DNA of 64,000 nt from Boothiomyces macroporosus. Taxonomy: Eukaryota > Chytridiomycota > Chytridiomycetes > Rhizophydiales > Terramycetaceae. The notes beneath the pieces are model-generated. The model had not been told where the DNA came from and searched no databases. It saw nothing but the letters and a program-made list of their open reading frames with translations. Numbering within the stretch: position 1 is the stretch's first letter; each line of letters starts with the position of its first letter. The DNA is taken from the NCBI GenBank assembly GCA_027604185.1, contig JADGKB010000043.1:1-64000 (forward strand), written 5' to 3'. The position numbers and the translations under genes are program-made. This document shows positions 1-64,000 of the stretch, piece by piece.

Positions 1-2610
1 GAGAAAACATCACGTTTGGCCACGAATACGACCCAGTGCGATACGAAAAAGTAGTGCGCGCTTGTGCCTTGGCGAAAGACTTTGAAAACTTGGACGGCGG
101 AGACTTGACTGAAATCGGAGAAAAGGGGATCAATCTCAGTGGTGGGCAGAAGCAGCGCATTTCCCTCGCGCGTGCCTGCTACTCGCCTGCGTCTATTGTC
201 CTGCTCGACGACCCTCTTTCTGCTGTAGACGCACCAACTGCCCGCTATTTGCTGCACAAGTGCATCCTGGGGGTGTTGAAGGGACGAACGGTTGTTCTTG
301 TATCCCATGCCACCCACTTGGTCGTGCCGTTTGCCGACTACATTGTATCGATGAAGAACGGAGAGATCGTCAACCAGGGGGCTCCAATCCAGCTGGTCCA
401 AAATCCCGAAGACGAGTCGCTCTTTGGATTGGATCTTACTCGAGATGAATTTGAAGACATTGAAGAGAGCGAGGTTTCTGTTATCACTGCCGCTGGTAAT
501 GGAACGACATTAGTAGAAGATGAAGAAAAAGCTACTGGTGCTGTTTCTTGGTCTGTTTATCGCTTGTACTTTAAAGCTGCTGGAGGTGTGTTATTTTTCA
601 TCCTCTTCATGTGTTCATTCTTCTTATCGTCAGGTGCTAAAGTTGGTAATGATTGGTGGCTGAAAAAATGGACTGATTTCAATGGTGCTGCTGATCCTAA
701 TGTAACTTTGAAATCTTTCGATAATACTGCTTACATTTACACCAATGATGGTCAAGGAACTGAATTGATCGCCAACACAATGCCATTTACTTCATTGATT
801 TTCAATCCTTTTGCAACTGGCAAATCTGATTTGACTGTGTCTGCAACCTCTACTCTTGACGAAGACTTTAGAAATGAAACCTTTTATTATCTAGGAATTT
901 ATGCTGCCTTTGGTGCTTCTGTAGTGTTAGCCAACAATTTACAAAGTTTGACCACTCTGGTTGGTGCTCTTTTTGCATCTCGTCGCCTACACACCAAATT
1001 ACTTAATGCAGTAATGTACTCACCTTTGCGTTTCTTTGAAACTACTCCAATCGGACGTATTCTCAATCGATTCTCAAAAGATATTGAAAACATTGATTCT
1101 GCTGTTATGGACAGTGTTCACTACTTTATTAACCAAATCATTCAAGCCGCTACCATCATCACTGTTATTGGTTCAGTTGCGCCAGTCTTTTTACTAGCTA
1201 CACCATTCATTGCAATTTCATACATTATCGTTGCAAAGAGATACTTGGAAACTTCCCGTGAATTGAAACGTTTCGAATCGACTACTAGATCTCCTACCTA
1301 CGCACAATTTTCAGAAACTCTTGCTGGTGTCTGCACTATCCGTGCGTATGGCCAAGAAGAGCGATTTGCTGATATGAACAAGATTAAAGTCGATGGCAAT
1401 CACAAGCCATTCTTTTATGTTTGGGCAGCCAATAGATGGTTGTGTTTAAGAACTGATCTAATTTCTGCTATTGTTGTATTGTGCGCTGGTTTGGCGGTAG
1501 TGTTTACCGGTATTCCTGCCGGTTGGGCTGCACTTTGTATTTCATACTCTCTTGATTTTACCAACGCCCTGTTGTGGACTGTCCGTATGCATGCTGAAAT
1601 GGAAATGAACATGAACTCTGGTATTTACTTTACTAACAATAGTGGAACGTGTAGAAGAGTATAGTGGAATTGAACAGGAACCACCAGCAATCATTGAATC
1701 CAACAGACCAGATCCTAGCTGGCCTTCTCAAGGAGCAATTCAAGTAAAAGATGTCAGCATTAGATATGCCCCTGAGCTTCCAGATGTGCTAAAGAATGTA
1801 AGTTTTGCTATCCGACCACATGAAAAGGTTGCAGTCGTGGGACGTACAGGTGCCGGAAAGTCTACCTTGTCTTTGGCGTTCTTTAGGATCTTGCCTATTT
1901 CCAGTGGCTCTATCCATATTGATGGAGTTGATATCAATCAAATTGGACTGTTCGATCTTCGATCTCGATTGACAATTATTCCACAAGATCCTGTGCTTTT
2001 CACTGGAACATTGCGATCAAACTTGGATCCTCTTGAACAGAATGATGATCAAACTCTTTGGGAAGCATTAAAGAGAGTTCATTTCTTGGAATCTATGCAA
2101 CAACAAGCTACCGCCGAAAATGACGAAAAGTTGATTACCATAGAAGACTCTACTGTTGCATCTAGCGTTGTTGCAACTGACGTGGGATCCGGAATAACTC
2201 TTGATTACACAGTTACTGAAAATGGAGGCAACTTTTCTCAAGGTCAAAGACAATTATTGTGTCTTGCTAGATCTTTGATTCAAAGAAACAAGGTGATATT
2301 CCTCGACGAAGCAACTGCATCAGTCGATAACGAAACTGACGCAAAGATTCAAGGAACAATTCGCAAAGAATTTGCTGATAGCACCATTATCTGTATTGCT
2401 CATCGTCTCCGTACTGTTATAGATTACGACAAGATTTTAGTGTTGGATAAGGGACAAGTTCTTGAATTTGGTTCTCCTTTGGATTTGATTGAAAAGAGCA
2501 ATGTCGGTGCCTTCAGATCAATGTGTGAGGAAACTGGGGAATTTGAAGAATTGGTTGAGATCGCAAGAATTGCCAGCGCAAACGGCAAATTCAAGGCAAA
2601 TAATTATTAA
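1..2610 (+). CDS. ABCC/MRP-type ABC transporter, C-terminal part
   Basis: Carboxy-terminal part of a full ABC exporter of the ABCC (MRP/Ycf1/Yor1) type, a family that pumps anionic or glutathione conjugates across the plasma or vacuolar membrane using ATP. The frame is open from base 3; the first membrane domain and first Walker A lie outside the window. Seen in order: NBD1 signature LSGGQKQRISLARA (135-176), Walker B IVLLDDPLSAVD (195-230), the second membrane domain (about 560-1600), NBD2 Walker A GRTGAGKST (1840-1866), signature FSQGQRQLLCLARS and Walker B VIFLDEATASVD. A 22-base intron at 1621-1642 contains TACTAAC; removing it restores the family motif MNSVERVEEY. The first 450 bases are clearly more GC-rich than the rest. 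The transported substrate cannot be read from sequence. Confidence 0.93.
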
Positions 2611-2672
2611 GAAAAACATTTCAATAAAGTAATGTTCATTTAATTTTCCGCGATCGGAAATTTTAATTTAAC

Positions 2673-62248: not shown

Positions 62249-62293
62249 ATACGTCATTCTCCTAATTTTATTCTAAGCACAGTCTTTGATGGA

Positions 62294-64000
62294 TTATAAT
62301 TGAATCATTTCCAAGAGCTTTTCGCAAATATCTTTGTAGTCTCCTGAAGCACCGCTTAATCGCTTGAAACGCAATCCATGTAAATTATTTAGTCTAGGAA
62401 GTTTGCATACTTCCACTTCAAACTTTAGAGGTTCTTTTCCACTCGAATTAGAAGTGCATTCAAGCAAATACCGTGTTTGAAGACGGTGAGTGATGCCTAA
62501 TTTGTTTGCGACTTTAATCACTTCTACAAAGATTTCATCAGGTGGTTTTGAAGAGGTGGTGTTTGAATTGAATGTGAATCTTAGAGAACGAGGTTTGTTG
62601 GCATCTGATCCTTCAGGTGTTTCAGCAATTGTTGCGTCTCCAACAGTGCCGTTAGAGTTTTGGGAATCGGATGGTCTGCGCATATGTCCCCTAAAGATGC
62701 CAACAATGGTGTTGTGTCTTTTTCTGTTTTGCAACTCTCCAGGTTGAGCGGCTTCGCCTTGAGCTGGAGCTGATTGAGACTCTGCAGTTGCTTCTGCTTG
62801 TTGGGATGGTGCGCCAGAGGCTGATGGTAATGCAGATGAAGGGCGGGCAGGTACAAGAGGTATTTGAGCAGGAGCTGCATTTGATTCTGCCGCAACTTCT
62901 TTTGCGTCGCCGTTTCCATTGACTGTAGCTGCTCTTCTTCTCCTTCCTGATGCAACTTGCGGAACAACCTTGCTTTCTGGATGAGAATCTTTTTGTTCTT
63001 TGTGCTCCTTTACTTCTGGTAGCACTTCATCTTCGCCAATGATAGGCATATTCTTTCCAGCTGCCGCCGTAACAGATGGCTCTTTCGGTCGGGTTGGAGA
63101 TAGCTTGGTGATCTCTAGCATATCATTTTCAATATTCTGTCTGGTTTGTTTTTCATAGTAGAGTAAATAATAAATGGCGGTCAAATCGTTGTAAACATTT
63201 TCCCTTAATCCCTGTAAAATAACATCCCTCTCAATTTTGAATTTCGCTTCCATGAGTTTAATGACTCCTTCGTCTTCTTCAAAGGTTTCAGATTTGTCTG
63301 TTGAAATTGGAGAATCAGGATAGCCTTCGTTAATCCATGGATCATCAATCAGGATATCCAAGTTTGCTCTCTTTACTGGATCACGGACTAGGAACTTTTT
63401 CAATAGCTTTTCACAATCTAGGTTAGACGATTGATACTGTCACTCAAGAAGAATGGAATTCTATATTTTCCTCTGCAAACTGATTCTCTCATTTCTTGAA
63501 GATTCTTTCCGTCGAATGGAAGACAGCCAGTAGTTAAAACGTATAGAATAACACCCAAACTCCAGACATCAACTTCTGGCCCAGTATACCTCCTCCCTTG
63601 GAACAATTCTGGAGCAGCATAACTTCATTAGCAAAAGATTACGGAGGAGAGCCGCAGAATGTGTCCAGTTTTGAATCTGGATCGTAATAGTTACTAAAAC
63701 CAAAGTCTGCAATCTTAATGTCTAGATTGGCATCTAACAGTAAATTCTCTGCCTAATATTAGCAGAATATACTTTAAGATCTCTATGAATAACTCTTTTC
63801 TTGTGGCAGTAGCTAACTGCAGACAAAATCTGTCTGAATTTGGCCCGAGCCTCTTTTTCTTTCATTTTCCCATGCACAACCAGATAGTCATACAACTCAC
63901 CACCAGACGCGTACTCCATTACCAAGAAAACGGTGGATTTTGTTTCAATAACTTCATACAACTTAATTACGTTTGGATGGTGCAATAGTTTCATTATCCT
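62294..64000 (-). CDS. Par-1/MARK-type protein kinase, C-terminal part
   Basis: Ser/Thr kinase of the MARK/Par-1/Kin1 branch of the AMPK family, involved in polarity and microtubule control. The gene runs off the window; the N-lobe with the ATP-binding Lys is missing. Seen: [17 protein letters not shown] (from helix C), catalytic [25 protein letters not shown]-loop [17 protein letters not shown] with the LKB1-type Thr, then a UBA-like region ([20 protein letters not shown]) and a C-terminal KA1 domain ([20 protein letters not shown]). Introns 63753-63772, 63623-63642 and 63418-63437, each 20 bases. The spacer between UBA and KA1 is rich in Ala, Gln, Glu and Pro. Confidence 0.95.

Follow-up and report, generated by a model that had tools for sequence, protein, structure and literature searches.

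Ultrashort GT-AG introns of narrow length range in the genome of the chytrid fungus Boothiomyces

The first 64,000 bases of contig 43 of a Boothiomyces genome assembly (bases 1–64000, hereafter the window) carry a real class of ultrashort introns, most of them 19–22 nucleotides (nt) long, and the same class is found outside the window. We consider it very likely (probability roughly 0.9) that the class consists of ordinary U2-type GT-AG spliceosomal introns, compressed genome-wide to about the smallest size the Boothiomyces spliceosome handles. A length peak, sequence motifs, two fixed spacings, conserved proteins restored at the joins, and genes for U1, U2, U6, U2AF1, U2AF2 and SF1 were all observed, and removal of the introns by the major spliceosome is predicted from these features. 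An earlier note on the window, made by reading it, had proposed genuine short introns in a fungus of normal gene content, and this agrees with what was found: the host is a chytrid with a 15.2-Mb assembly (15,203,306 bases, 216 contigs).

Source DNA and gene finding

The organism was identified with a single gene. Our model of CCT-alpha is 99% identical to the proteins of Boothiomyces sp. JEL0866 and JEL0838 and 90% identical to that of Globomyces pollinis-pini, with the next-best matches coming mostly from other chytrids; judged by this protein, the source is a chytrid fungus of the genus Boothiomyces (Rhizophydiales, Chytridiomycota). Introns were sampled from the window plus twenty 10-kb pieces (L009–L028) of twenty other contigs at coordinates fixed in advance, 264 kb in total, and further loci were added through family searches of the genome. 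The gene finder scored codon usage, was first trained on open reading frames of at least 250 residues, and allowed introns of 10–300 bases (8–300 with splice-site models) with an equal prior for every length. It replaced a first decoder whose strong intron penalty yielded few introns.

Intron lengths

With the flat prior and no splice-site model, 90 of the 231 GT-AG introns called in the 264 kb fell at 19–22 bases. Five mock dinucleotide pairs run in the same way gave 7 of 224 (TG-GA), 12 of 232 (GT-GA), 12 of 226 (TG-AG), 7 of 195 (CT-AC) and 5 of 206 (AC-CT) in that interval, so that the length peak appears with GT-AG only. At all other lengths GT-AG showed no excess over the mock pairs (16 versus 13–26 at 10–18 bases, 16 versus 9–21 at 23–30, and 109 versus 157–181 at 31–300). 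The last round without a site model called 240 introns, 99 of them at 19–23 bases; 18 was absent, and other lengths were thinly represented, three introns of 17 included. When learned site models were combined with the flat length prior, 308 introns were called: 60 of 19 bases, 98 of 20, 42 of 21, 32 of 22, three of 23 and one of 24, the remaining 72 ranging from 14 to 297. In site score, thirty of these 72 reached at least the lower quartile of the short introns, and some of the 72 proved by eye to be two short introns flanking a lost exon. The twenty pieces (19:49, 20:83, 21:33, 22:23, 23:2, 24:1) and the window (45 introns of 18–24 bases; 19:11, 20:15, 21:9, 22:9, 23:1) agree in their intron lengths under this prior. 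The modelled coding sequence carries about 1.5 introns per kb, and the 236 short introns in 264 kb extrapolate to about 13,600 genome-wide.

The range of 18–23 bases given in the earlier note thus holds for its core, a peak at 19–22/23, and needs amending at both ends. Introns of 18 bases were absent from the two main flat-prior runs and called twice in one further locus (L033), in a gene outside the homology-checked set, so they may be rare if present; a thin tail at 24, 44 and 111 bases lies above the range. Against its tally of about 80 introns in the window, the flat prior gives 45 of 18–24 nt and a learned length prior 61 of 19–23 nt.

Pattern searches of the whole genome that are blind to reading frame gave the same picture. 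The pattern GTAATT-N(1–31)-CTAAY-NN-AG had 330 matches against 64 for its reverse, and the variant with NNN before AG had 280 against 81. Among 100 listed matches for each pattern, the NN form gave 53 at 19 bases, 24 at 20, four at 21 and one at 22, none at 17–18, one at 16 and 17 scattered over 26–46; the NNN form gave two at 17, one at 18, two at 19, 51 at 20, 20 at 21, one at 22, three at 23 and 20 scattered over 26–47. The peaks thus hold shares of 82 (NN, peak at 19–20) and 74 (NNN, peak at 20–21), and no second peak was seen among the listed matches, although the patterns reach 46–47 nt. Both samples drop sharply at 13 bases before the branch A. Each pattern fixes one donor and one branch form and thus samples introns rather than counting them. 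The listed places include second copies, judged by offset, in duplicated segments (three for NN, five for NNN): matches recur at fixed offsets of 42,596, 53,656 and 45,067 bases in contigs C2, C10 and C20, which suggests large duplicated segments or assembly duplication.

Joins in conserved proteins

Joins were compared with proteins of solved structure in nine genes: CCT-alpha against the yeast subunit, CCT-eta against yeast and, after correction, human, CCT-gamma, -theta and -zeta against chains of 4b2t, CCT-delta against a yeast chain, CCT-beta against 9unw, Hsp60 against 9k47, and glutathione reductase against the human enzyme. The 41 accepted joins comprise three introns of 19 nt, 13 of 20, ten of 21, seven of 22, three of 23, three of 24, one of 44 and one of 111, so that 39 of 41 lie at 19–24 nt and the exceptions are single introns in CCT-gamma (44 nt) and CCT-alpha (111 nt). 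Four of the 41 are weak: one at the start of CCT-eta (24 nt) and one at the end of CCT-beta (22 nt), each with only about two residues on one side; a 21-nt in-frame intron of CCT-gamma, taken from a seven-residue insertion with no realignment after removal; and a CCT-zeta join at residue 469 with a one-residue indel four residues beyond. Before the count we excluded a 22-nt CCT-eta join that coincides with a one-residue indel, N-terminal joins of CCT-gamma, -zeta and -beta that lie outside the alignments, and gene-fusion calls.

The alignments corrected the gene finder in several places. Calls of 40 nt in glutathione reductase, 33 and 27 nt in CCT-eta and 41 nt in Hsp60 were wrong and became 22, 21, 21 and 23 nt, respectively, and in CCT-gamma the gene finder was seen to have read through the stop-free 21-nt in-frame intron mentioned above; the longer calls of 44 and 111 nt survived. 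The first model of glutathione reductase skipped six residues of the human enzyme, which was mended by the intron at 34028–34049. The JEL0866 CCT-alpha protein is equal in length to our five-intron model. From the JEL0838 protein the first two exons are missing, and five additional residues stand at the position of the 111-nt intron; these differences are probably annotation errors, as would be expected if annotation software struggles with such genes. Of the 46 introns called at ubiquitin-protease loci, none of them homology-checked, 39 were 19–24 nt long and seven longer (32–147).

In three genes an intron appears to lie directly at the translation start: in CCT-eta (L032, the aligned case) it follows ATGATG, in CCT-gamma (L037, by reading) it follows ATGA, and in the CCT-zeta model (L039) it splits the ATG. 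The two long introns, of 111 nt (L045) and 44 nt (L037), are rich in GATC/AGATCT-like words. Their predicted folding was somewhat better than that of shuffled sequences (z of −1.6 and −2.0), on which we base no claim; it is conceivable that a fold shortens the effective distance within them.

Intron anatomy

Among the 236 introns of 18–24 nt, the number of bases before the predicted branch A was 13 in 114, 14 in 89, 15 in 28, 16 in two, 17 in two and eight in one, that is, at least 13 in 235 of 236. The gap from the five-base branch motif, positioned as the best fit of a learned model, to the AG was one base in eight introns, two in 100, three in 112, four in 14, five in one and eight in one. 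The earlier note's description of a branch site close to the 3' AG and no polypyrimidine tract is thus borne out: the gap is 2–3 bases in 212 of 236 introns and therefore leaves no room for such a tract after the branch. Four words, TTAAT (66), CTAAT (53), TTAAC (33) and CTAAC (19), account for 171 of the 236 branch motifs, and the intron interior is T-rich (T 0.41, C 0.17). At the donor, the 308 calls favour A at +3 (0.88), A at +4 (0.56) and T at +6 (0.60). Position +5 is T in 0.46, A in 0.25, C in 0.19 and G in 0.11, so that the usual G, which is common in U2-type introns and does not define them, is largely gone.

Lengths divisible by three are not avoided in the manner of Paramecium. A frame-blind comparison of spacings of 13 and 14 showed no loss at 21 nt (p 0.72), and in-frame 21-nt introns with no stop, which are invisible to gene finding based on open reading frames, were found in at least four strong cases (L012, L013, L016, L019) and in CCT-gamma (L037). 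The stops present in 43 of 43 in-frame introns of the gene-finder run reflect decoder bias. A depletion of decoy introns in long open reading frames was also looked for, and an excess was found instead (11 versus a mean of 1.7 in 30 shuffles), made up of seven introns already called and four in-frame introns of 21 nt.

Splicing machinery

Two U2 genes were found (142.2 and 135.4 bits), both of which keep GUGUAGUAUCUG, and the branch motif YTAAY matches the GUAGUA of U2. The 5' end of U1 (L031) reads ATACTTACCTGG, and the one U6 gene (C59:61918–62023, 62.2 bits) contains ACAGAGA. The earlier note had suggested a loss or change of U2AF1/2 or SF1, and the loss did not materialize: U2AF1 is represented by four stretches across C1:324316–324913 with 51–71% identity, U2AF2 by a best stretch of 230.7 bits over model positions 168–471, and SF1 by its N-terminal SF1-HH domain (114.6 bits). 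Because genes for U2AF and SF1 are found, their loss is not the cause of the short introns; all three proteins are known here as search matches, with sequence changes possible. A control search with U2AF2 gave weak matches in 2 of 14 bacteria, none above the cut-off. The U2AF2 match itself contains a 19-nt pattern match (C2:123443–123461). A genome search with RED_N (Pfam PF07808), the domain of a factor described in an extract of PMC6692369 as needed for short introns in human cells, returned no match, an empty result that does not show absence. The U1 gene and both U2 genes (L029, L030, L031) share ATAAATA about 25–30 bases upstream and TTAAAATGAAA just downstream, possibly a small nuclear RNA (snRNA) promoter and 3' box.

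Proposed mechanism and alternatives

Each short intron follows the plan GTA(A/T)(T)(T), then a few mostly T bases, YTAAY, 2–3 bases and AG, with the predicted branch A at intron position 14–16. If these are ordinary introns under compression, the AG directly after the branch site would be the one used. The first ~6 bases would be recognized by U1 and then by U6, YTAAY by SF1 and then by U2, and the next AG would be taken. Established knowledge of the spliceosome suggests a rationale for the 13-base floor: the helix of U6 with the 5' splice site (~6–8 bases) and that of U2 with the branch (~5 bases) would lie nearly end to end. Because the two snRNA footprints would nearly abut, shorter introns would fail and longer ones could be trimmed by deletion down to the floor, and either deletion bias or selection for economy may have driven most introns onto it.

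Several points weigh against this reading, which is drawn from genomic sequence. The lengths depend in part on our own gene finder, which got several longer calls wrong and cannot see an in-frame intron that has no stop. U1 scores 68.8 bits, slightly below the gathering score of 69.5, and is absent from the gathering-threshold scan; the U2AF2 score lies below the whole-protein cut-off of 310.3 bits, its exons having been scored apart. One intron of the 236 breaks the 13-base floor. Finally, G has largely gone from +5 even though U1 keeps a canonical 5' end and U6 a canonical ACAGAGA box, which plain compression leaves unexplained. This last point bears on a possible but rather doubtful extension, in which the introns would be recognized largely by length, through the fixed spacing of adjacent snRNA footprints and an altered assembly route. 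With only 13–15 bases before the branch A, the U1 and U2 small nuclear ribonucleoproteins could hardly fit on one intron in their normal arrangement, and the information at +5 would have decayed because spacing carries the signal. If so, this would be the first fungus known with nearly every intron at the geometric limit of the spliceosome.

Could the lengths be normally mixed, with the short introns being merely the easiest to spot by eye or by gene finder? Introns of 44 and 111 nt are indeed present, and the seven longer ubiquitin-protease calls stand outside the homology comparison. The prior was flat, however, and under it GT-AG calls of 23–30 and 31–300 bases did not rise above the mocks, the frame-blind patterns had no second peak among the listed matches, and all but two of the homology-checked joins lie at 19–24 nt; we regard such an ascertainment effect as improbable. 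Removal by a route other than splicing, be it DNA elimination as of the internal eliminated sequences of ciliates, translational bypassing or a nuclease-ligase pathway, would account for a spacing far under the ~50 nt that human splicing is reported to need between 5' splice site and branch site (extract of PMC6692369). We judge it more improbable still, given that GT-AG ends and YTAAY are spliceosomal signatures, that matching snRNA and branch-recognition genes are present, and that mikrocytid introns of 16–17 nt have transcript support (extract of PMC10245619). The least credible alternative is that sequencing or assembly errors, or pseudogenes, break reading frames and so mimic introns. The apparent duplications in C2, C10 and C20 do indicate an imperfect assembly, but errors would produce neither GT-AG ends nor a fixed spacing of the branch motif nor a peak at 19–22 with no mock equivalent, and the effect extends to housekeeping genes (CCT subunits, Hsp60 and glutathione reductase), every one of which was restored.

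Comparison with known short-intron systems

Ultrashort uniform introns are already known from Stentor, nucleomorphs, mikrocytids and Paramecium; what is new here is the kingdom, fungi, and a geometry of its own. The earlier note's comparison with nucleomorphs and a few protists is apt as to size class, chlorarachniophyte nucleomorph introns being 18–21 bp (PMC10245619). As in Boothiomyces, their range is narrow and nearly identical, introns are many and the genome is compact; the nucleomorph is a relict endosymbiont nucleus of ~300 genes, set against a 15.2-Mb fungal genome, and the two are likened by intron size. Stentor coeruleus has introns of 15–16 nt with the branch A at the 10th or 11th base, and resembles Boothiomyces in genome-wide ultrashort introns, a near-fixed branch A and relatives of U2AF1 and U2AF2 (PMC9505925). 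It differs in having no strong branch consensus, whereas Boothiomyces has introns of 19–23 nt, a branch A at 14–16 and a clear YTAAY (PMC9505925 for Stentor). The mikrocytids Mikrocytos mackini and Paramikrocytos, with 224 introns of 16–17 nt and a strongly reduced spliceosome, share very short introns of uniform length and conserved sequence, and the same balance of deletion bias against a functional minimum has been proposed for them (PMC10245619). They are parasites with a reduced spliceosome; Boothiomyces has the extrapolated ~13,600 introns and the six splicing genes found by search.

Introns of ~25 bp in Paramecium and Nyctotherus (PMC5014332) are slightly longer; the likeness to Boothiomyces lies in an intron-rich genome whose introns are exclusively ultrashort. 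No avoidance of lengths divisible by three was found in Boothiomyces. Anchoring of the branch site a short, constant distance from the AG, with no pyrimidine tract, is shared with Yarrowia, Giardia and Trichomonas, all of them intron-poor, and in the survey concerned every intron-rich species had variable 3' ends (PMC2483917). Boothiomyces, with its ~1.5 introns per kb, is unlike these three and runs counter to the survey's restriction of strict branch-AG anchoring to intron-poor species. For human splicing, the smallest separation of 5' splice site and branch site that permits efficient assembly is given as ~50 nt, with the two helices of the B complex lying 15 nm from each other (PMC6692369); in nearly all short introns sampled here that separation is 13–15 nt.

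Within fungi, the extracts of a study of 644 genomes, whose Table 1 has two Chytridiomycota, quote mean intron lengths between 63 bp (Cryptococcus) and 469 bp and mention no ultrashort class (PMC8476143). Nor do the extracts of PMC11649378, PMC8371127, PMC10470594, PMC13391722 and PMC11797018 mention short introns in chytrids. The earlier note knew of no such description for a fungus, and no report was found in the literature searched either, which left subscription journals mostly outside, so that one may exist in print. Since Boothiomyces has the usual early splicing genes, the minimum size of an intron and the changes it requires become testable, and transformation has been achieved in a related chytrid, Spizellomyces punctatus (extract of PMC7213984). 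Such genomes will be misannotated by any gene finder whose minimum intron length exceeds 20.

Introns and other features of the window

The final window models hold 61 introns of 19–23 nt within 1621..63772, plus one in a ubiquitin-protease gene (23 nt, 15942–15964, minus strand). Most of the 61 have no homology support of their own, and their lengths are not independent because a learned length prior was used. The outermost introns, 1621–1642 and 63753–63772, coincide with the ends given in the earlier note, and three joins it had named were recovered exactly: GNT/CYLN in the ubiquitin-protease gene just mentioned, TCVNVG/CVPKK in glutathione reductase (22 nt, 34028–34049, minus strand, aligned with the human enzyme), and GP/AGVGKT, a Walker A motif, in an AAA ATPase gene (21 nt, 35954–35974, minus strand). 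The first intron (22 nt, plus strand, GTATTTACTTTACTAACAATAG), a flat-prior call, lies in an ABC transporter gene and its removal restores NS/VERVEEY. Two further 22-nt introns of glutathione reductase (33622–33643 and 33465–33486, minus strand) give joins colinear with the human enzyme, and the AAA ATPase gene has another of 22 nt at 36376–36397 (minus strand).

On the plus strand, a 20-nt intron (41132–41151) lies in a gene that we take to be Fab1/PIKfyve-like and whose TCP-1 domain matched Pfam PF00118, and six introns of 19–20 nt (17658–17676, 17844–17863, 19079–19097, 19306–19325, 19460–19478 and 19635–19653) lie in one gene, presumably kinase/TBC-like. Three of 20–22 nt (45615–45636, 45759–45780, 46438–46457) interrupt an Xaa-Pro peptidase gene (Peptidase_M24, Pfam) and three of 20 nt (63418–63437, 63623–63642, 63753–63772) a kinase gene, both on the minus strand. 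The other minus-strand introns of the final models are at 4522–4541, 4952–4970, 5608–5626, 7072–7090, 13563–13583, 13668–13686, 13780–13799, 13977–13996, 14462–14480, 15297–15317, 15644–15663, 15793–15813, 16345–16365, 20275–20293, 20650–20670, 20733–20752, 26264–26283, 31400–31421, 35870–35889, 36689–36707, 38417–38437, 38945–38964, 57205–57225, 57784–57802, 58182–58202, 58531–58549, 58893–58912 and 60553–60572. Those on the plus strand are at 42609–42627, 43917–43938, 44302–44323, 44484–44502, 44726–44745, 47349–47371, 47531–47551, 48604–48624, 48777–48797, 52672–52691, 52763–52783, 52938–52958, 53472–53490 and 59905–59924.

Two other features of the window were noted. A cluster of small HMG-box genes occupies 25383–31640 and 48531–50598, with all five tested models matching Pfam HMG_box and four direct copies of 222 nt (64–74% identity) at 26281–31640; it reminds us of what we take to be expanded MAT-HMG genes in other early fungi. 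Two velvet-like genes adjoin each other at 9902–10510 and 12180–12783, of which the second matches Pfam Velvet (38.7 bits) and the first was judged by eye from its similarity to the second.

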